Below, piece by piece: positions 9,311 to 27,846 of a stretch of DNA of 64,000 nt; positions within the stretch are counted from its first letter, which is position 1; each line of letters begins with the position of its first letter. The notes beneath the pieces are model-generated. The model ran no database searches. It saw nothing but the letters and a program-made list of their open reading frames with translations, and was not told the origin of the DNA. The position numbers and the translations under genes are program-made. Location: assembly GCF_010726245.1 (NCBI RefSeq), contig NZ_AP022561.1, positions 5,580,001-5,644,000 on the forward strand. Reading direction: 5' to 3'. The stretch is from Mycolicibacterium aichiense. Lineage in GTDB: Bacteria > Actinomycetota > Actinomycetes > Mycobacteriales > Mycobacteriaceae.

Positions 9311-10381
9311 CTACGCCAGCTGCCACTGCCAGTCGTCGGCGCCGTCGGGGTTGTTGTAGGTGCCGACGGAGTTCTTGACCACGATCGGGTCGCCGCTGCC
9401 GAAGTTGTCGTAGAACCACTTGGCATTGTCCGGGGACAGGTTGATACAGCCGTGGCTGACGTTCCGCTTGCCCTGATCGGCCACCGACCAGGGCGCGCTG
9501 TGCACGAAGGCGCCGCTGTTGTCGATGCGCACCGCCCACTGGACTTTCAGCTTGTAGCCTTCGGCCGAATTCACCGGCACCCCATAGGTGGACGAGTCCA
9601 TGATGATGTCCGGGAACTTCTCCAGCACGTAGTACGTGCCGTTCTTGGTCTCGTGCTTACCGTCCGGCTTGCCCATCGAGACCGGCATGGTCTTCTCCAC
9701 CTTGCCGTTTCGCGTGATCGTCATCTGATGGGTCTTGTCGTCGACGGTGGCCACCAGCGAATCACCGACGCGGAAGCTGGATTTGGCGCCGCTGGCGTCG
9801 ATGTTGACGACTGTGCCCTGCGGCCAGAAGTTGTACGGCCGCCAGCGGACCTGGGTGTCGGTGGTCCAGTAGAAGGCGCCCGGAACCGGTGGCACCGAGG
9901 AGATGTGGATGGCCTGCTCGGCCATCGGCCGGTTGGCGATCGGACGCGCGAAGTTGATGATGATTGGTTTGGCCACGCCGACCATGGCGCCGTTCACGGG
10001 ATTGAATGTCGGCGGCGCGAACACCGGATCCCCGGTGTAGGGCGTCGGGTTCTGGCCTTTGACCGGACCAGCGGCTGCCGCGGCGGCCTGCTGAGCGGCC
10101 ACCGGATCGACCGGCGGTGGCGCCGGCGGAGCAAACGGGTCGGGCGCCGGGACGGCCGGGTCGCCCACCGGGGCTGGCGGCGGGAACGCCGCGGGGTCGA
10201 CCGGTGGCGGCGCGAACGGATCGGGTGCGGGCACCTGGGCGGGAGGTACGTCGGCGATCCCGGGATCGGCGGGCGCCTGATCTGGATCGGCGAGCGCCGA
10301 ACCGCTGCCGAGACTGATTCCGGCGGCCACTCCGACCACGCACAGCGTGGTGGCGATGGCCCCCTTCACCCGCAGCGTCAT
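9311..10381 (-). CDS. L,D-transpeptidase (Rv0192 / LdtMt4-like)
   Basis: A 356-residue exported enzyme that makes 3-3 cross-links in peptidoglycan. Signal peptide [20 protein letters not shown] with cleavage near ALADPD; then a Pro/Ala-rich linker, an Ig-like domain, and the YkuD catalytic domain with [17 protein letters not shown], the nucleophile being Cys at about residue 312 and the paired His just before it. The ATG chosen has GAGGGAG eight bases upstream; a start 14 codons earlier would weaken the signal peptide. It occupies the place of M. tuberculosis Rv0192, next to the Rv0191-like exporter. Confidence 0.93.
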
Positions 10382-10526
10382 AACCAAAACTCCCTCGAAA
10401 CCGACGTTGACCCAGTCTGACATAACACGCTGGGTGCACTTCCCGAGTTCATTCGCCGGCGAACCCGGCCGCGAACTCCGTCACTGCCCTGAACTGTGCA
10501 GATCGTCGGGCGGGGGGTGAGAAGCG

Positions 10527-11768
10527 TTACTTTTCGCTGGTAGCCGGGCGGTCCGCGAACAGGCCCCGGCTGACCATCACGCAACCCAATGCGCCCAGCA
10601 TCAGCACGCATGACGCGGTGAGCATGGTCGCGACGCCGGCCCGTTGGTAGAGCAGCCCGCCGGTCAGCGAGCCGGCCATGATGCCGACCTGGAAGCACGC
10701 CACGTAGAGCCCGGAGGCGCCGTCGGGATCCTGCGGGGAATGCCGCATCGCGGCGGTCTGCAACATCGGCGGCATCGCGTTGGCGGTGGCACCCCACAGC
10801 ACGATCGCCACCGCCCCGGCCGCTGCGACGGCGGCGGTGTGCCAGCCGAGGTGACCCAGCGCTGCCAGTGCGGCGAACGCCAGCGACGACGCGGCCAGAC
10901 AACCCATCACCGCTGCCTTGGGCCGACGGTCCCCCGGCCGGGCCAGTAACGCCATGCCGGTCAGGCCGGCCACCCCGTACGCCGCGAGCAGCCAGGCCTG
11001 GTGCGCCCCGTGCACGCCGACCACGTCCCGGATGATCACCACGATGAACGTGTAGGAGATGAAGTGGGCGGTGACACCCACCAGCGTCAGCACGCTCAGC
11101 ATCAGCAGCGGGCGGTTGCGGTGGTGGACGACTCGCCGGGGCCGCGCACCGGCTGCCGCGTCGGTCAACGCCATCGCCGGAAGAGCCAGCCGTGCCGCGA
11201 CGAGCACGAGCACCGACGCCACGGCGATGGCACCGACGGCGGGCCGCCAACCCCACAGCTCGCTCATCGCCGCGGTCAGCGGGCTGCCGACCACGAGCGC
11301 CAGGCCGGTGCCGACGTAGACCGCCATCGTGGCGCGCCCGGCGTGGCTCGGCGGAACCAGCCGCGCACCGATCGGGGCGATCACCGACCACATCAACCCG
11401 TGCGTGAGCGCGCACAGCACCCGGCCGACGGCCAGCACCGTGAAGGTCGGCGCCAGCGCGGAGATCAGTTGCGAAATCGACAGGCAGGCCAGCGTCCACA
11501 ACAGCGTGCGCCGCCGCGGCCACGTCGCCGTCCACCGCACCAGCGGCATCGTGGCCAGTGCGGCCACCAACGCGTAGCTGGCCAGCAGGGTGCCCACCAT
11601 CGCTTCGCTGACGTGCAGGTCGCGCGCGATGGCGGACAGCGCACCGACCGGCATGATCTCGGCGGTGACGTAGATGAACGCCGCGGCGGCCAGCACGGCC
11701 AGCGCTGTGGCGACTCGCGGTGTCCACGTGCGCTGCACGGTGGGCACGGGTTCACGGTATCGGCTCAC
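10527..11768 (-). CDS. MFS exporter (Rv0191-like)
   Basis: A 413-residue membrane protein with about 12 helices, of the drug/sugar-efflux branch of the MFS. The N-terminal region carries the antiporter pattern SYALVAALATMPLVRWTATW and an Arg-rich RRR loop after helix 2. M. tuberculosis Rv0191 is syntenic and has been called a chloramphenicol or arabinose-type efflux permease. It lies between the copper unit and the L,D-transpeptidase, all on the same strand, though the 145-bp gap before the transpeptidase suggests a separate promoter for that gene. Confidence 0.88.
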   Translation of the reverse strand: MSRYREPVPTVQRTWTPRVATALAVLAAAAFIYVTAEIMPVGALSAIARDLHVSEAMVGTLLASYALVAALATMPLVRWTATWPRRRTLLWTLACLSISQLISALAPTFTVLAVGRVLCALTHGLMWSVIAPIGARLVPPSHAGRATMAVYVGTGLALVVGSPLTAAMSELWGWRPAVGAIAVASVLVLVAARLALPAMALTDAAAGARPRRVVHHRNRPLLMLSVLTLVGVTAHFISYTFIVVIIRDVVGVHGAHQAWLLAAYGVAGLTGMALLARPGDRRPKAAVMGCLAASSLAFAALAALGHLGWHTAAVAAAGAVAIVLWGATANAMPPMLQTAAMRHSPQDPDGASGLYVACFQVGIMAGSLTGGLLYQRAGVATMLTASCVLMLGALGCVMVSRGLFADRPATSEK

Positions 11769-19275: not shown

Positions 19276-21498
19276 ATGAGCCGCACCGCTTTGCGAATCT
19301 GCCCGTTCTGCGAGGCCACCTGCGGGATGGTCCTCACGATCGACGACAACGACCGGGTCAGTGCCGCCCGGGGTGATCGTGACGACGTGTTCAGCCATGG
19401 CTTCATCTGCCCCAAGGGCGCCAGCTTCCCCGAGTTGGACAACGATCCGGACCGGCTGCAGAAGCCCCTGGTGCGCCGCGACGGTGAACTGGTCGAGACG
19501 TCGTGGGCGGACGCCTTCGCCGCGGCGGCCGAGGGACTGCAGCGCGTCATCGCCGACACCGGCGGCTCGTCGGTCGCGGTGTACCTGGGCAACCCGAACG
19601 CGCACACCATCGCCGGGTCGCTCTACGGGCCGGTCGTGATCAAGTCGCTGGGCACCCGGCAGGTGTATTCGGCCAGCACGCTGGACCAGATGCCCAAGCA
19701 CGTGTCCTGCGGCTACCTGTTCGGCAATCCGCTGGCGTTCACCCTGCCCGACCTCGACCGCACCGACTATCTCGTCGTGATGGGCGCAAACCCGTTGGTG
19801 TCCAACGGTTCTCTGGCCACCGCCGCTGACTTCCCGGGCAAGCTCAAGGCATTGCGCCGTCGCGGCGGCACCCTGGTCGTGATCGATCCCAACCGGACCC
19901 GCACCGCCGAACTGGCCGACCGTCACATCGCGCCCCGGCCCGGCACCGACGCCGCACTGCTGTTCGCGGTCGCCCAAGTGCTCTTCGACGAGGACCTGGT
20001 CGATCTGGGCAGGCTGGCCGGGCACGTCTCCGGGCTGGAGCGGGTGCGGGCGGCGGCACAGGACTTCCCGCCGGAGGCGGTGGCCGAGCATTGCGGAGTC
20101 GACGCCGACGAAATCCGAACGCTGGCACGCGAACTCGCTGCGGCCCCGAGTGCGGCGGTCTACGGCCGCATCGGCACCTCGACGGTCGGGTTCGGCACGC
20201 TGACCAGCTGGCTGGTCGACGTGGTAAACATCTTGACCGGCAACCTGGACCGCCCGGGCGGAGTGATGTTCGCCAGCTCGCCGATCGCCGGGGCGCCGCG
20301 CCCACCGCGCCCGGGCCGGGGATTCGCCACCGGCCGCTGGCGCAGCCGGGTCTCCGGTCACCCGGAGGCACTGTCCGAGCTGCCCGCGGTCGCTCTTGCC
20401 GAGGAGATCGAAACCCCCGGCGAGGGACAGGTCAAGGCGATGATCACGATCGCGGGGAACCCGGTGTTGTCGGCGCCGGACGGCGCCCGGCTGTCCGAGG
20501 CCCTCGATGGCGTCGGCTTCATGGTGTCGGTGGATCCCTACCTCAACGAGACCACCCGGCACGCCGACGTGATCCTGCCGCCGCCTCCGCCTTCTCGCGC
20601 AGCGCATTACGACCTCGCGCTCAGTGGGGCGGCGGTGCGCAACAACGCCAGGTATTCACCGCCGGTACTGCCGCTGCCCGAAGGCAGGCCCGACGAGTGC
20701 GAGATCCTGGCGCGGCTGGCGCTGATCGTGCTGGGTATGGGCCCCGACGCCGATCCGGCCCTGGTGGACGAGCAGGTGATCGCGACCACCCTGGGCAAGG
20801 AGGTCGCCGACGAGCACTCGCCGGTGGCGGGCCGATCCGTCGAGGAGCTGACCGCGATGCTGCCCGAGGGCCGCGGTTTCGAACGACGGCTGGACATGAT
20901 GCTGCGGCTGGGCCCGTTCGGGGACGGTTTCGGCGCGAAGCCGGACGGCCTGACCCTGCAGCGACTGAAGGACACCCCGCATGGGGTGGACCTCGGCGCG
21001 CTGACCCCGCGGATCCCGGAGATTCTCCGGACGCCTTCGGGCACAATCGAATTGGATCCTGAGCCGATTCTCGCTGACGTCCCGCGGCTGCAGGCCGCGC
21101 TGACGTCGGAGCCGGGGTTCCTGCTGATCGGCCGGCGGCACCTGCGGTCCAATAACAGCTGGATGCACAATCTGCCCGCCCTGTCCGGCGGCACCAACCG
21201 CTGCACACTGCAGATCCATCCGGACGACGCCGCCCGGCTCGGCCTCGAGGAGATGGCTGTGGTCACCGGTCCGGGCGGGAAACTCGAAGTGCCCGTGGAG
21301 ATCACCGATGCGATCCGCCCCGGCGTGGTGTCACTGCCGCACGGGTGGGGGCACACCGAACCGGGCACCCGGATGCGGGTGGCGGCCCAGCACCCGGGCG
21401 TGAACGTCAACAACCTCAATGACGGCACGCTGCTGGATCCATTGTCGGGCACCGCGGTATTGAACGCGCTACCGGTGGAGGTGGCGCCCGCCGGCTGA
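19276..21498 (+). CDS. Molybdopterin-dependent oxidoreductase (FdhF/NarB-like catalytic subunit)
   Basis: A 740-residue molybdo-enzyme. The N-terminal 4Fe-4S site is CPFCEATC...CPKG. The Mo-bis-MGD domains follow (MGANPLVSNGSL; MITIAGNPVLSAPDG; VDPYLNETTRHADVILPPP), and the C-terminal MopB dinucleotide-binding domain ends with NVNNLNDGTLLDPLSGTAVL. No twin-arginine signal is seen, so it is cytosolic. The ATG has GAGGGG upstream. The substrate is not clear; similar actinobacterial proteins resemble Rv0197 of M. tuberculosis. Its last 490 bp are found again 5,213 bp downstream in a diverged copy, so this gene's 3' end was probably brought in with the adjacent island. Confidence 0.88.
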   Translation: MSRTALRICPFCEATCGMVLTIDDNDRVSAARGDRDDVFSHGFICPKGASFPELDNDPDRLQKPLVRRDGELVETSWADAFAAAAEGLQRVIADTGGSSVAVYLGNPNAHTIAGSLYGPVVIKSLGTRQVYSASTLDQMPKHVSCGYLFGNPLAFTLPDLDRTDYLVVMGANPLVSNGSLATAADFPGKLKALRRRGGTLVVIDPNRTRTAELADRHIAPRPGTDAALLFAVAQVLFDEDLVDLGRLAGHVSGLERVRAAAQDFPPEAVAEHCGVDADEIRTLARELAAAPSAAVYGRIGTSTVGFGTLTSWLVDVVNILTGNLDRPGGVMFASSPIAGAPRPPRPGRGFATGRWRSRVSGHPEALSELPAVALAEEIETPGEGQVKAMITIAGNPVLSAPDGARLSEALDGVGFMVSVDPYLNETTRHADVILPPPPPSRAAHYDLALSGAAVRNNARYSPPVLPLPEGRPDECEILARLALIVLGMGPDADPALVDEQVIATTLGKEVADEHSPVAGRSVEELTAMLPEGRGFERRLDMMLRLGPFGDGFGAKPDGLTLQRLKDTPHGVDLGALTPRIPEILRTPSGTIELDPEPILADVPRLQAALTSEPGFLLIGRRHLRSNNSWMHNLPALSGGTNRCTLQIHPDDAARLGLEEMAVVTGPGGKLEVPVEITDAIRPGVVSLPHGWGHTEPGTRMRVAAQHPGVNVNNLNDGTLLDPLSGTAVLNALPVEVAPAG
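21009..21498 (+). repeat. Direct repeat, left copy (3' end of molybdo-enzyme gene)
   Basis: This 490-bp segment, the functional end of the oxidoreductase gene, aligns without gaps to a second copy 5,213 bp downstream. By eye the copies are about 90% identical, with changes mostly at third codon positions. Similarity stops exactly at the stop codons. A 23-bp identical block lies at 21037-21059 and a longer identical block around the NSWMHNLPALSGGT codons. Confidence 0.9.
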
Positions 21499-21969
21499 AC
21501 CTCCCGGCGGTCATTTCCTCACGGCGAAGGTGTCAAGGTATCGGCCCCGCTGAGGAACGGCAATGCGTCGGCACTCGTACCAACAAGGGAATGAGCACCG
21601 GGTCGGAGTGACTGGCGTAGCGCGCGGAAGGTTCCGCCAACAACCTCCCGAGTTCCTTGGCTTCTGCGCGCACCGCGTCACCAGAGGCCTCGGTGGTTCG
21701 CTCGTAAAGCCCTACTAATGTCGTGGTGGCGCGGTTGGGCACTGACCGCGACTGCGGTGCGCTCTCTGCAGTTACACAGATCTCGCCTTAGTCTTTAATG
21801 GGGTCCACACGCCGGCGGCGCTGGCGTCAAGTGTGGTCCCGCCCAGTCGAGGCAGGTTCCTCTGGCCCTACGAGAGCGGCAACCTGCGCGTGTGCGGTGG
21901 CGGCCCAACTCAATCCGCATCTCCCAACGGCCGACCTGCTTTCGCAACGATTACGCACTATTTTGATTG
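21499..21969. other. Left end of island, no gene recognised
   Basis: A 471-bp stretch between the oxidoreductase stop and the hipA remnant. A 69-codon minus-strand reading (21533-21742, GTG) has a plausible amphipathic composition (YERTTEASGDAVRAEAKELG) but no family was recognised and no ribosome site is evident. It may be a fragment of a lost gene. Confidence 0.4.
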
Positions 21970-22573
21970 CTACGCGGAGATATACCCGTAGCTCGCGTCC
22001 GGGTTGAGTATTTGCCGGTGCCACAGGAACTTTCGCGGCGCTCGGGTCAGCTTGGCCATGTCAGCAGCCTCGTCGAAGTCATGCTTAATAACCGCGACTT
22101 GCGAATCGACGATCTCGCGTGCCTGTGCGGTGCTCAGGCCGTACACAGGCGCAGCGGCAACAACCGCGGCGAATGAACTCTCGCGGGCCCCCTTGCGGTC
22201 AAATGCCAGGGCCTGCGACGAGGTCTCACCGGAGCGGATCTGCGGGCACAGGTCATATGCGGGGGTGAGCTCCAAGGCGTGGCCGCCCCAGAACGCGGCG
22301 TGGTTGCGCGTGATCGTCGTTGTTGCCGATTGCCACGTTGAATACGATCCGCTCGAACAGCCGTCGGCCGATGGCGGCGTCGGTACCGGTGCGGCGCAGC
22401 ACATCGAGCAAATCCGGATAGGTGGCGTAGCGGCCCTCCATCTCGTCAAGCCCGAGCATCGTCAACGCCGAGACGATGATTCGCCGGCCGCCGCTTGCCG
22501 GGCGGTCGAACCGCTCGATGACGAGCAAATCGCGGCCTAGCGATTCGGTCAGAAACGATCTGTCAGAGCGCAC
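21970..22573 (-). pseudogene. hipA toxin remnant, N-terminally truncated and frameshifted
   Basis: Two overlapping minus-strand frames together give the C-terminal half of a HipA-type Ser/Thr kinase toxin. The first frame has LLVIERFDR, LERIVFNVAIGNNDDHA-like text ending at the DDHA of the catalytic region; the second resumes with RNHAAFWGGHALELTPAYDL and runs to a normal HipA end (FLWHRQILNP). The shift falls at about 22306-22310, where a GC pair appears lost from a GCGC run. The N-terminal half and any hipB antitoxin are missing; recognisable text fades into the start of the divergent nuclease gene. It cannot make an active toxin. Confidence 0.8.
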
Positions 22574-22588
22574 ATTTACGATCGCGTC

Positions 22589-24613
22589 ATGCCCAGACTT
22601 GGCGGATTCCCAGAGGACCGGCAGACCGGCTCAGAACGCATGCTCGAATCCGTGGCGAGGTCGGGACCCGGTGTAGTTCGGCGAACGTTGCCGCCGGGAC
22701 CCGAACGTGACGCGCTCCTAACCGAGATTCTGCAGGCGGTCCAAGCAGATGCCGGAGACCTATCCATCTTGGTCGAAGAGCTCCGCGACCTCCTCAAAGG
22801 TCGTGATCTGACGCAGCTGATTAACTCGGTTGCGGTGCCCGCCGCGATGGTCACGTTCGCCGACGGAGACAGCCTCGCCGACGGAGACACGACGGCGTCC
22901 TGGGCGGCGAAGGTCGAGTATCTAGTAGGCGTCGCACTGTCCATGGATCCCGGCGGCGACGCCGACACCCCACCCGACGTAACAGAGCGGGTGAGGCAAC
23001 TAATCAGCGACATCTTCGAAACCGATCAGCTGCGCATGCTCACTGACGGTTCGGCACGCGCCGATGCTGACGATCCGGACCGCGCGCATCTGCTGCAGCA
23101 GCTGCAGTTGGAGTACCAGGTGGACCGGATGCCCGGCTATGCGGTGCACCTCGAACGGGTCGACACCGAAGTATTCGGGCGGCACCACGACTACTACGTG
23201 AAGGGTCTCGGTTTTGATCCTGCGGACGTCGTCCGAGTTACTCGACTCCGTGCCCGTGGGGTGAACGAGGCATTCAAGGCAGCTCTCGAGGCACTGACCG
23301 ACGCACTGAACGGAAGCGAGCCAGATTCCGCAGCCGGAGAAGCCATACGCAACGGGCTTGCTCCGCCGACCTTGTGGGACCCCAATGACGTGGCGGCCTG
23401 CACCGACGTCCCGGTGGAGCAGATCACCGCGATGCTGGACTTCTTCTCGACTGAGTTCGGCTGCCAGCCCGAGTTCCGAACCCCTGGTGATGTAAACCGG
23501 GCACGCACTCATCCCTGCATCAAGCTGGACGATGGTAAGTACCTCGTCCCGGACTCGTGGTCATTGTCAGCCGTCCTCCACCAGCGTCTCGCGGTGGAAC
23601 CGAAACGAAGCGGCTACGACCCGCAGACGTACTACAAGCACCGTCAGGACGCACACGAACGCCTGGTCTGCAGCACGTTGAAAAAGGTATTCACCACCTC
23701 GAACGTCTATTCATCGCAGCACTACGCGCTGGCGTCCGGCGACAAGGGCGAGGTCGATGCGCTTGTCTGCGCCGACTGGCCTCTAGTAGTCGAGGCCAAG
23801 GCCATCGCACTGACTGAGCGAGGACGACGGGGCTACGCCGATCGGGTCGACAAGAAGCTGGGAGAAATCCTCGTGAAGGCGCTCGACCAGACGGACCGCG
23901 CTCTGACCTACCTGCTAGATGAAGGCGGACGGTCTTTCGCGCCCAAACAGGGCGGGCCGCAGGTCTCGCTGCTCCCCGACGATATCGCTGGCGGCACAGC
24001 GATCATCGTCACGTTCGAGAGGATAGACCCATTCGCTTCCGGCGGACTGGCGGTAGCCGGCGCCGTCAACCGTCCAACCTGGGTTGTGTCGCTAACGGAC
24101 CTGCTGATGGTCGCGGATATCCTCTCTGATCCAGCGGCATTCCACCACTACGCGCGGGTGCGTGCGGGTATGCATTCGGCCAACGCATCCGCTGCGTCGG
24201 AGGCAGACGCGCTCGGCGCCTATCTGCTCGATCGTCTCCGCATCGTGGACCAATCACGCTCCGAGGAGATGTCGCGCGTTCTCATCGGATACTCCTGCGA
24301 GTCGCTCAACGACTTCTACACAAGGCAGGAAATGGCGCTTGAGGCGAACAAGCCCACGGCGGGCGTGCCTGAAGCCGTCACGGGCGCGCTGACCAATGCG
24401 GTAGGCCAGCCGGGATGGGTGGTGTGTGTCGACGCTGTGATGACCGCGGGCTTCTCCGTCTGGAAGAAGTGGAACCGGTTCCGCAGCAAGCATCGACTTG
24501 GTGGAACCTTCGTACTTACCGACCGAGTGTGCCTCGTCACGCAGCCGAGTGTGGAGGATTCGCTTGAGAAGGTCGACGACGCGATCAGGCTCAAAGTTCC
24601 ATCCAGACGATGA
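22589..24613 (+). CDS. Large protein with PD-(D/E)XK-like nuclease motif, candidate defence protein
   Basis: A 674-residue soluble protein that I do not recognise as a named family. The first ~350 residues are helical and acidic. At residues 388-404 it reads EVDALVCADWPLVVEAKA, the Asp...Glu-x-Lys core of PD-(D/E)XK nucleases, with a preceding helix HERLVCSTLKKVF that could hold the fold's N-terminal Glu. The remaining ~250 residues alternate strands and helices (GGTAIIVTFERIDPF, GWVVCVDAVM). No helicase or membrane motif is seen. No ribosome site precedes the ATG, so the start is uncertain. It lies in the island, 115 bp before the ApeA-like gene and on the same strand, which supports a role in phage or plasmid defence. 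Confidence 0.75.
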   Translation: MPRLGGFPEDRQTGSERMLESVARSGPGVVRRTLPPGPERDALLTEILQAVQADAGDLSILVEELRDLLKGRDLTQLINSVAVPAAMVTFADGDSLADGDTTASWAAKVEYLVGVALSMDPGGDADTPPDVTERVRQLISDIFETDQLRMLTDGSARADADDPDRAHLLQQLQLEYQVDRMPGYAVHLERVDTEVFGRHHDYYVKGLGFDPADVVRVTRLRARGVNEAFKAALEALTDALNGSEPDSAAGEAIRNGLAPPTLWDPNDVAACTDVPVEQITAMLDFFSTEFGCQPEFRTPGDVNRARTHPCIKLDDGKYLVPDSWSLSAVLHQRLAVEPKRSGYDPQTYYKHRQDAHERLVCSTLKKVFTTSNVYSSQHYALASGDKGEVDALVCADWPLVVEAKAIALTERGRRGYADRVDKKLGEILVKALDQTDRALTYLLDEGGRSFAPKQGGPQVSLLPDDIAGGTAIIVTFERIDPFASGGLAVAGAVNRPTWVVSLTDLLMVADILSDPAAFHHYARVRAGMHSANASAASEADALGAYLLDRLRIVDQSRSEEMSRVLIGYSCESLNDFYTRQEMALEANKPTAGVPEAVTGALTNAVGQPGWVVCVDAVMTAGFSVWKKWNRFRSKHRLGGTFVLTDRVCLVTQPSVEDSLEKVDDAIRLKVPSRR

Positions 24614-24728
24614 AAGTATCTGGTTCTCGTGCGGTTTCGCGGCCGCGAGAAGGCATAGATCGGGCCCTGCTGCGTTCGCCGCGCCCTGAAACACCGTCGG
24701 CAAGCACCGAGCGTGTCATGCTTGGCCG

Positions 24729-25520
24729 GTGGCATTTGGCGAATATGCAGGACAATGGTGGGTCGCTGGCAATACCGAAGATAAACAGCCCGGGACCCTG
24801 GAACTGGAGCTCGGAAAATGGCCGCGACTAACTCTTATCGGCGGGTTCGATCTCCGAGCGCTACGTCAGTTAGGCGGCAGCGAAAGAAGAATTGCGGTCA
24901 CCGATGAGGAGCGAAGACTACCGGTATTGCACGGCGTTTCGCAAGGCAAGAAGATAACGATTCTGGACTGCAGGAGCATTCATGCCAACTATCCGATGGA
25001 CCTCGGCGCACCACCGCAATTCCAGATATTAGAGGCTAGTCAAGCATTCATAGGGCTCTACATTGACCAACCTGACGCCGCAGTATTCGACACCTGCCGA
25101 CTGCGGGTAGAAAACCAGCACAATCTCATGCAGGCAGGTGATATATCAATCATTACTCGAGAGCAATCGGCCAGTGAGTACTCAGTTCTCCTAGATGCGG
25201 TCGGGACCAGTGAATTAACAATCGACGATTTCACAATATCAATGAAACCCTGGGCCGATATAAAGTCGGACTCCACACTTCGCTCTCGATACGCACGATC
25301 CGAAGTTGGAGTAGAAATTGAAATTTCGTCGGCCATACCGAGGACCTACGAGGCTTTTGGAAAGTTGCGAAACGACTTAATCGATCTCACCGCCCTTGCC
25401 AGTGATAGGCGCTGTGGAATCATCAGCGAACACGTTCAGCTCGCGGAAAAAGAGCGGTTCAGCATCCCCACAGAGGGGCCGACGGGAAGATCAGCCGAAA
25501 GGAGATCGAACGCCCCGTAA
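24729..25520 (+). CDS. ApeA-like anti-phage protein, N-terminal half (frameshifted gene)
   Basis: A 263-codon reading from GTG. The text AGQWWVAG...GTLELELGKWPRLTLIGGFD and HGVSQGKKITILDCRS matches the pattern of the ApeA N-terminal domain (beta-rich, Trp near the start, GxLxxxxG and xGxxxGxxxTL motifs). ApeA is a single-protein HEPN defence system that restricts phage growth. The real frame is lost near 25470-25490, around a GGGG run. After it this reading becomes Arg/Ser-rich and stops, while the +2 frame continues sensibly into the HEPN half. Base composition is clearly more A+T-rich than its surroundings. Whether the frameshift is real or a sequencing error cannot be judged here. Confidence 0.7.
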   Translation: MAFGEYAGQWWVAGNTEDKQPGTLELELGKWPRLTLIGGFDLRALRQLGGSERRIAVTDEERRLPVLHGVSQGKKITILDCRSIHANYPMDLGAPPQFQILEASQAFIGLYIDQPDAAVFDTCRLRVENQHNLMQAGDISIITREQSASEYSVLLDAVGTSELTIDDFTISMKPWADIKSDSTLRSRYARSEVGVEIEISSAIPRTYEAFGKLRNDLIDLTALASDRRCGIISEHVQLAEKERFSIPTEGPTGRSAERRSNAP

Positions 25521-25528
25521 CTGCAGAA

Positions 25529-26176
25529 GTGCATACCGTTCGTACAGTTTTGCTAGATAGCTCTGAGACGCCAGCCCATTCAGATGATCTCTTTTTTTCC
25601 GTCGGCGACATGCCATTCGACGAGATGTTTAGTCGCTGGCTTCCGTTAAGACGTAAAATCGACGTCGCTGGAAATATGATTTTTGGTCTTCTCAACAGAG
25701 AACCAGCTTTCGTTCAGACCCAACTACTGACAATTGCCGTTGCGGCGGAGGCATTGAGTCGCGGCCTACGGCCTGGTGCTCTACCCATGACCCCTCGCGA
25801 CTTCGAGCGGTTACTTGCTGAAGCACTGAAAACGCTCGATCCGGGTGACCGCGAGCGGTTTGAGGGTCTTGTCCGAAACGAGCCAACGTATCGAGATCGT
25901 TTGCTAGATCTCGCGTCTATTCCCTCGCAAGTGGCCGTCGATCTCGTGCTTCCTGACCGCGAGGGATGGGCAAACAGTCTGAGAAACGTCCGCAACGGCC
26001 TCGCGCACGGCCTCGCTCGCGACATCGGCGAACTAGAAGAACTGCATCAGCTTTTTCTACGCACCAAGTACTTACTATATTTGGTGATCATGGCGGAGAT
26101 GGGCCTCTCCGGGAGCGTGCAGGAGCGCTGCATCCGCAATAATGCTCCACTGATGCATTTGAACAATGCTGGTTGA
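25529..26176 (+). CDS. ApeA-like HEPN domain, C-terminal half (frameshifted gene)
   Basis: A 215-codon reading from a GTG that is probably not the native start, since the frame is open and coding-like upstream (KISRKEIERPVTAEVHTV) back to the frameshift. The helical domain ends with RNVRNGLAHG, which holds the HEPN RNase motif R-x4-H (Arg codon at 25991, His codon at 26006). Joined to the upstream half it gives a protein of about 480 residues, in the size range of ApeA. HEPN domains of this kind cleave RNA, often tRNA, on phage infection. The catalytic motif is intact, so repair of one base would restore a full protein. Confidence 0.75.
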   Translation: MHTVRTVLLDSSETPAHSDDLFFSVGDMPFDEMFSRWLPLRRKIDVAGNMIFGLLNREPAFVQTQLLTIAVAAEALSRGLRPGALPMTPRDFERLLAEALKTLDPGDRERFEGLVRNEPTYRDRLLDLASIPSQVAVDLVLPDREGWANSLRNVRNGLAHGLARDIGELEELHQLFLRTKYLLYLVIMAEMGLSGSVQERCIRNNAPLMHLNNAG

Positions 26177-26221
26177 AAAGCTGCGGTCCCCTTGTCTGCC
26201 CGACAGCACGACTGTTCGCCC

Positions 26222-26711
26222 GTGGATTCCCGAGGCCCTCCGGACCCCATCGGGCACAATCGAATTGGATCCCGAACCGATCCTCGCCGATGTCCCACGG
26301 CTGCACGCGGCGTTGACATCGGAGTCAGGTTTCCTGCTGATCGGCCGGCGACACCTGCGGTCCAACAACAGCTGGATGCACAATCTGCCCGCCCTGTCCG
26401 GCGGCACCAATCGCTGCACGCTACAGATCCATCCCAACGACGCCGCCCGGCTCGGCCTCGATGAGATGGCGATCGTCACCGGTCCGGGCGGGAAACTCGA
26501 AGTGCCGGTGGAGATCACCGACGCGATCCGTCCCGGCGTGGTGTCCCTGCCGCACGGCTGGGGACACACCGAGCCGGGCACCCGGATGCGGGTGGCCGCA
26601 CAGCACCCGGGCGTCAACGTCAACAACCTCAACGACGGCACGCTGCTGGATCCGTTGTCCGGCACCGCGGTATTGAACGCGCTGCCGGTGGAGGTCGCGC
26701 CGGCCGGCTAG
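26222..26711 (+). pseudogene. Displaced 3' fragment of the molybdo-enzyme gene (right repeat copy)
   Basis: This fragment encodes the last ~163 residues of the oxidoreductase (from RTPSGTIELDPEP to the VEVAPAG end) but lacks the first ~578 codons. It is gapless with the left copy at about 90% identity. Its stop codon overlaps the stop of the convergent PPOX gene, a tight native-looking junction, so this is probably the original resident 3' end left behind by the island. A 26166 ATG opens the frame, but the ~19 codons before the homology look random. Confidence 0.85.
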
Positions 26712-27322
26712 TACAACACCTTGCGAATGTTGTCCTCGCAGTAGCGTTCCTCGAGCTCTGCCTCGGACCAGTCGTGCCGCAACGCCTTGGCCATCTGGGC
26801 GACGCTGGGCAACGCGGTCGGATTCCAGGTTTCCGGCTTCCAGGTGTCCGAGCGCAGGAATGCCTTGGAGCAGTGGAAGAACACCTCGTCGATGTCGACC
26901 TCCAACGCCAGCAGCGGCCGCTTGCCCTTGACCGCCATGGCGTCGAAGTAGTCGGCGTCGGCCAGGATGCGGCCCCGGCCGTTGATTCGCAGCGTGTCGC
27001 CGCGACCGGGGATCACGAACAGGGTTCCGACTCCGGGCCGCTGCAGCACGTTGAGATATCCGTCGACGCGCTTGTTGCCCGGCCGATCAGGGATGGCGAT
27101 GGTGCGGTCGTCGATCACGTGGACGAATCCCGCCGGGTCCCCCTTTGGCGAAATGTCAACGTGGCCTTGCGCATCGGTGGTCGCCACAAAGGCCAGCGGG
27201 GAATGCGCCAACCAGTCCTGTTGTACCGGCGACAGCCGATCCTTGACCTTGTTCGCCACGTAGGGGTCAGGTTCGCCCACGATCTCCCGAAGCTCGGCGA
27301 CGGTGGTCACTTCACGGTGCAT
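26708..27322 (-). CDS. Pyridoxamine 5'-phosphate oxidase-family flavin/F420 protein
   Basis: A 204-residue split-beta-barrel protein. Text such as DWLAHSPLAFVATTDAQGHVDISPKGDPAGFVHV (shown by its parts LAFVATTD and ISPKGDPAGF), IAIPDRPGNKRVDGYLN and a late FHCSKAFLRS matches the MSMEG_1061-like/PPOX subgroup of actinobacteria that bind FMN or F420. It probably reduces a small molecule or handles heme; the substrate is unknown. The ATG before HREVTTVAEL has a GGGGGAGG site about ten bases upstream. A much longer reading upstream is a shadow of the next two genes. Confidence 0.85.
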   Translation of the reverse strand: MHREVTTVAELREIVGEPDPYVANKVKDRLSPVQQDWLAHSPLAFVATTDAQGHVDISPKGDPAGFVHVIDDRTIAIPDRPGNKRVDGYLNVLQRPGVGTLFVIPGRGDTLRINGRGRILADADYFDAMAVKGKRPLLALEVDIDEVFFHCSKAFLRSDTWKPETWNPTALPSVAQMAKALRHDWSEAELEERYCEDNIRKVLY

Positions 27323-27348: not shown

Positions 27349-27846
27349 TCAGCGGACACCTTCCTTGGCGTAGACGACGCGCAGCACATGGCCCACCTCC
27401 GGGCCCATCACCAGTGCGGCCAGCTCGCAGAATGTCGCGACGAAGGCCGGACCGTGGGCGGCGCCCTGCGGGGTCAGGTGGTGGGCGATCTCGTGCAGCA
27501 ACACCAGCTCCCGCATGGCCCAGTCGGCGGCCGAGCGGTCGGGGACGGCGATAACGCCTGTGCCATCGACGTTTTCGTAGTGCGCCGCGGTCGCCGCGCG
27601 GCGGGGACGCACACTGAGCGGTCCCGGGTCGGGCCAGCGTGCGGTCACGGCAGGCAGCGCGAGTACCTCGTCGACGTAACGCTGCACCGACGGTATCGAG
27701 GCGAATCGTCCTTCCGGCGGCAGGGTGAGCTGGGTGCCGAAGAAGTCGATGGTGCGTGAACTGTGCTGGGCGGCACGATCGAAGAGGGTCCGGACGAACT
27801 CTTCGGCCGCGTAGACGCGGGAGCGCTGGCTGTCGCGCGCCGTCAC
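27349..27846 (-). CDS. TIGR04338-family metallohydrolase (Rv0184-like)
   Basis: A 165-residue protein with the zinc motif HEIAHHLTPQGAAHGPAF, that is HExxH plus a further His, as in small putative metallopeptidases restricted to actinobacteria. No signal peptide. The GTG start overlaps the stop of the DUF2786 gene (GTGA), so they are coupled; the same gene pair is Rv0184-Rv0185 in M. tuberculosis. Its substrate is not known. Confidence 0.88.
   Translation of the reverse strand: MTARDSQRSRVYAAEEFVRTLFDRAAQHSSRTIDFFGTQLTLPPEGRFASIPSVQRYVDEVLALPAVTARWPDPGPLSVRPRRAATAAHYENVDGTGVIAVPDRSAADWAMRELVLLHEIAHHLTPQGAAHGPAFVATFCELAALVMGPEVGHVLRVVYAKEGVR

Follow-up and report, generated by a model that had tools for sequence, protein, structure and literature searches.

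Repeats of a gene end around a genomic island are usually read as the attachment sites of a mobile element. Attachment sites located in gene ends have a recurrent form: the repeat ends where the gene ends, and its other end varies. In the phage 21/e14 type of integration into icd, the insert has the 3' end of a coding gene at either border, and that gene remains intact. According to the accessible text of the papers concerned, homology-facilitated illegitimate recombination was proposed for the T6SS effector–immunity arrays of Vibrio cholerae (PMC5361080); such recombination was reported during Escherichia coli conjugation (PMC3240628), and related recombination processes were discussed for small variable segments in E. 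coli (PMC2884548). The same holds for integrase-free hotspots with recombination at the flanking core genes (Oliveira et al., PMC5635113) and for mycobacterial distributive conjugal transfer, which is RecA-dependent, leaves mosaic tracts and can admit non-homologous donor DNA (PMC3706393). In the available portions of the literature searched, mostly open-access, no report of the locus described here was met.

We analysed 64,000 nt of Mycolicibacterium aichiense (GCF_010726245.1, contig NZ_AP022561.1, positions 5,580,001 to 5,644,000, forward strand), called the window below; all positions refer to it. An island separates a molybdopterin oxidoreductase gene, which we call fdh for convenience (its NCBIfam matches were all far below the cut-offs), from a convergent PPOX-type flavoprotein gene (Table 1). 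The end of fdh occurs on both sides of this island as a direct repeat. The two copies are offset by 5213 bp and, compared base by base, are gapless and identical at 443 of 493 bases; blastn aligned 491 bp without a gap at 90.2%. Judged by eye, the similarity of the right copy starts at about 26217, which gives a repeat of ≈ 495 bp. The 486 nt compared contained 48 codon-level changes, 40 synonymous and 8 nonsynonymous. A single CTAG contains both the TAG of the right copy and the stop of PPOX. These measurements bear out the original prediction of a gapless, ≈ 90% identical duplication of the last ≈ 490 bp, 5,213 bp apart, with mostly synonymous differences, in which the left copy completes the reading frame and the stop of the right copy overlaps that of PPOX. 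No tRNA or Rfam family was found at the junction in the window.

Table 1. Features of the fdh/PPOX region (positions in the window)
Feature	Position	Strand	Remarks
fdh, molybdopterin oxidoreductase gene, intact	19276..21498	+	740 aa from 19276; longest frame from 19168; TGA stop
G024-like tract of fdh (nt 1387-1802)	20662..21077	+	4 mismatches/416; boundaries picked post hoc
Left copy, fdh 3' end	21006..21498	+	repeat search, blastn, base-by-base comparison
Island, left part	21499..21982	.	no match among those listed, 396 genomes of the genus
Truncated hipA remnant, two frames	21970..22573	-	DNA similarity 21983-22559; relatives' frames 423-439 aa
674-aa gene, intact	22589..24613	+	no Pfam/NCBIfam domain; DNA similarity from 22561 in best relatives
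ApeA N-terminal domain, first part of split gene	24729..25520	+	domain match
Apea-like HEPN domain, second part, other frame	25529..26176	+	three relatives within open frames of 488-497 aa
Right copy, fdh 3' end	26219..26711	+	repeat search, base-by-base comparison; 5' part of fdh absent; no internal stop; ends CTAG
PPOX-type flavoprotein gene, convergent	26708..27322	-	stop within CTAG 26708-26711 common to right copy
TIGR04338 metallohydrolase gene	27349..27846	-	served as flanking marker

The genome is closed (one contig of 5,925,482 bp), and only the left and right copies matched the repeat closely in it; the other matches were partial (68% and 71%, plus 46 bp at 83%). In a self-comparison of 864 kb (14.6% of the genome, window included), it was the sole same-strand direct repeat that reached 120 bp and 80% identity with 1 to 25 kb between the copies; the five further repeats listed were below 80% identity or had copies closer together. 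The same genome also carries tandem 655-bp copies, 87% identical and 12 bp apart (L279:16168-17485).

To judge from the similarities, the cargo of the island is a mosaic. In the best relatives, matches to the hipA remnant stop at 22559 and those to the next gene start at 22561, which indicates that the island was assembled from pieces. The ApeA N-terminal and HEPN domains, expected in one frame in an ApeA defence protein, lie in two frames in the window. The 674-aa protein belongs to a family of 106 proteins (7994 candidates scored), whose named members are nearly all from Mycobacteriales and one of which is labelled a NERD-domain protein by one source; no solved structure matched it in sequence up to E 1. 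Two relatives of its gene lie on Mycolicibacterium plasmids (L184:6029-8053 and L185:6109-8040). A site-specific integrase gene is present in one of these plasmid stretches and a TniQ-family gene in the other. As a carrier of the entire island, a plasmid was rejected (no place covering at least 80% of it among 72,556 plasmid records), and so was a phage (a single phage record, matching the hipA part alone).

Searches of 148 and 396 genomes gave 30 loci, fetched from the best matches and not to be taken as a census. In seventeen, fdh and PPOX were arranged as in the window; 11 contained fdh and the metallohydrolase gene without a PPOX match between them, and one each contained fdh alone and PPOX alone. 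With the window, this makes 18 syntenic pairs: the stops overlapped as CTAG in 10, were separated by 10 to 11 bp in two (G184 and G156), and were pushed apart by an insertion in six. Relatives with an empty site, as foreseen by the original prediction, therefore exist (12 of 18 empty or nearly so). The distance from left to right stop was 5213 bp in the window, 5311 in G053, 9598 in G172, 4646 in G176, 635 in G315 and 87 in G004; the remnant of the fdh end before the right stop measured 490, 6, 33, 12, 19 and 8 nt, respectively. Compared with 5000 random positions, five of these remnants were reached at ≤ 0.04%, and the 6-nt one of G053 is weak (2.5%). Each of the six repeats extends to the fdh stop, and its opposite end varies. 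The left stop is TGA in the window, G004, G315 and G176, and TAG in G053 and G172; all 10 overlapped empty sites have TAG as the fdh stop.

The genes scanned in the larger insertions encode a two-component system, MspA and an FkbM methyltransferase in G053, an ABC transporter in G176, and an AMP-binding enzyme, a lipase, a PucR-like regulator and a DUF3556 protein in G172. The cargo of G176 also includes two-component (79%) and MspA (77%) regions related to those of G053. These related regions (G053 L116:10326-13127 and G176 L187:7036-11639) occupy the same junction in two genomes that the fdh tree does not place close together. Given this related cargo, an occupied site may not always represent a fresh insertion. 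Relatives of the two-component genes were found in four further genomes of 248, away from fdh in G156, G098 and G241, the fourth being G149. The G315 and G004 inserts have just 74 bp in common, and a search of 198 genomes for the source of the G315 insert returned mainly this dispersed element. Its two copies (G315 L188:6961-7034 and G004:C1:333102-333175) are 88% alike, and parts of it occur elsewhere in G004, G136, G098, G024, G172 and G013; it may be a small dispersed repeat. The fdh/PPOX junction is an insertion hotspot, with mostly different cargo in each genome.

The near relatives of the window are G024, G293, G151, G053 and G315, with a mean identity to it of 92.3 to 93.1% (61 to 116 blocks of 500 bp); a search of 119 extra genomes gave no more. 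In a tree of the repeat, both copies fell among these five (support 87/88, not strong), the left copy as sister to G024 (96/90), and the placement of the right copy lacked resolution. Sistership of the left and right copies was rejected for columns 1-490 (AU p 0.002) and 1-380 (p 0.008), and not for columns 74-490 (p 0.18); a group of the right copy, the left copy and G024 was not rejected (p 0.27). A recent in-species tandem duplication, which the original prediction had named as a refutation, does not fit and was rejected over the full repeat. Relative to a consensus, nonsynonymous and synonymous changes numbered 7 and 29 in the right copy, 1 and 24 in the left, and 2 to 4 and 16 to 24 in the five relatives. 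The right copy's ratio indicates that its evolution was largely that of a functional gene, with perhaps some decay later on; for dating, this decay offers a rough excess of changes only. On this evidence, the two copies look like two diverged orthologous alleles placed side by side. Elsewhere in the window, at 9501-11000, blocks are 97 to 98% identical to G293 versus 83 to 94% for the other near relatives, and this stretch is likely another exchange tract.

The explanation that we favour, with moderate confidence, is a homology-anchored illegitimate insertion at a hotspot that has no integrase of its own. DNA of a sister lineage would enter the cell, probably via mycobacterial chromosomal conjugation, and would cross over inside fdh by homologous recombination. 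The newcomer would supply an entire 3' end of fdh, TGA stop included, along with the mosaic cargo; at its far end, an illegitimate join to the resident chromosome would form ≈ 490 bp short of the fdh stop. The resident 3' end would remain as the right copy, and PPOX would keep its overlapping stop. The same two steps, with shorter remnants, could account for the other occupied sites. The route, the order of the steps, the donor and the choice of resident copy are what we infer. Because the stops overlap, a spare gene end is a condition for keeping both genes whole. The G024-like tract in fdh lies near the island (boundaries chosen post hoc), and at the right junction, about 26217, only a short likeness between the island end and fdh could be seen by eye. 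In E. coli, the threshold for homologous crossover is given as ≈ 30 bp in the accessible text of PMC2884548. Repeats of 6 to 33 nt would be too short for an easy crossover of this kind, and a crossover further up in fdh would have ample homology.

The original prediction suggested that the right copy is the resident end and that the left copy probably arrived with the island. We lean to the former, on indirect grounds: the right copy runs into PPOX, an fdh remnant is fused to PPOX in six of six occupied sites, and the left copy, as in four of six, ends with TGA. The latter counts because the overlapped ancestor (the empty site) must have had TAG. The relatives speak less clearly. The single 3' end of an empty site was expected to match the right copy, a match to the left being named as refutation, and taken literally the latter was found: the single end of G024 is identical to the left copy at 470 of 493 positions and to the right copy at 445. 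Counted over the full length, the left copy is the nearer one for four of the five near relatives, and the right copy is nearer to G053 by a single base; blastn identity puts all five slightly nearer to the left copy. The closeness of G024 is not decisive, since its likeness to the window peaks in a tract that lies largely before the repeat and, within the repeat, falls back to background. There are 85 mismatches to G024 in the first 1386 nt of fdh, 4 in the next 416 and 21 in the following 421. The G024-like tract thus ends inside the repeat, short of the island. In a breakpoint scan, the pair of window and G024 ranked second of 136 (p 0.005, uncorrected for the 136 pairs). As donor of the left end, G024 was rejected, as it fits just this tract; a search of 396 genomes turned up no donor in which fdh-TGA is followed by this island. 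The entry of a foreign fdh end with the insertion is supported; the right copy may be the resident one.

The placement of G024 would also suit a Campbell-type single crossover, in which circular DNA bearing ≈ 490 bp from the fdh end of a sister species is integrated by recombination near the stop; the left copy would then be largely resident and the right copy largely foreign. We consider this doubtful: the other five sites have just 6 to 33 nt of repeat, short for a homologous crossover, and the plasmid and phage records described above include none that covers 80% of the island. Convergent pairs with overlapping stops might form a general class of landing sites, where an insertion is retained only if it carries a spare gene end. 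This is unlikely in our estimate; if true, selection alone creates gene-end repeats that resemble attachment sites, with no recombinase involved. In a bolder form, an unknown enzyme acting in trans could recognise the fdh/PPOX junction.

The six repeats, with one end fixed at the fdh stop and the other varying, have the form of attachment sites in gene ends. A site-specific integration at the fdh end, by an element that carries the 3' end of its target and whose recombinase was lost or acts in trans, would explain this. Neither Phage_integrase (PF00589) nor Resolvase (PF00239) profile matches were obtained inside any of the six insertions, although such genes are present elsewhere in each of the six occupied genomes, and the island genes scanned with Pfam (part of the ORFs) included no recombinase. 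The original prediction was correct that no integrase is visible. Its reading by the logic of a target-restoring element, whose hallmark is an integrase of its own, gives way to recombination at a hotspot: no recombinase was found, the cargo mostly differs between sites and the repeat length varies. We regard site-specific integration as quite unlikely. An old duplication within the lineage, with both copies diverging from one fdh end in the same genome and the island lost in relatives, is very improbable; the test of columns 74-490 allows it and the related cargo of G053 and G176 suggests that some occupation may be old, but sistership fails over the full repeat and columns 1-380, and 7 nonsynonymous changes against 29 synonymous make a small number for a copy that would have had no function from the origin of the group onwards.

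We return to homology-anchored illegitimate insertion as the preferred explanation. At a single site, six insertions have gene-end repeats that vary in length and cargo that mostly differs, and no integrase was found in them; this points to ordinary recombination and not to a mobile element. If the explanation holds, flanking repeats alone are no proof of a mobile element, and homologous recombination on one side only gives mycobacteria a way to acquire accessory genes.

The locus resembles phage 21/e14 in icd in that a gene 3' end flanks the insert on both sides and the gene stays complete; it differs in that those elements have an integrase, whereas none was found here and the repeat length varies between sites. 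With distributive conjugal transfer it would share mosaic tracts in mycobacteria and the possible entry of non-homologous DNA; that process was described as replacement within M. smegmatis, and the available portion of the text contains no word starting with 'duplicat' (PMC3706393). As in the hotspots of Oliveira et al., accessory genes change between the same two core genes (6 of 18 junctions occupied) and no mobility genes (here PF00589 or PF00239) were found in the inserts; the double homologous recombination at both flanks proposed in the accessible part of that study would by itself give no repeated gene end (PMC5635113). In the V. cholerae T6SS arrays, again from the accessible text, new toxin–immunity modules displace old ones, whereas here a homologous gene end would arrive, the gene stays complete and the case is known from sequence only. 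Under the explanation proposed here, both would have a homology-anchored end, an opposite end joined in the absence of homology, and a resident sequence that remains downstream of the newcomer (PMC5361080).
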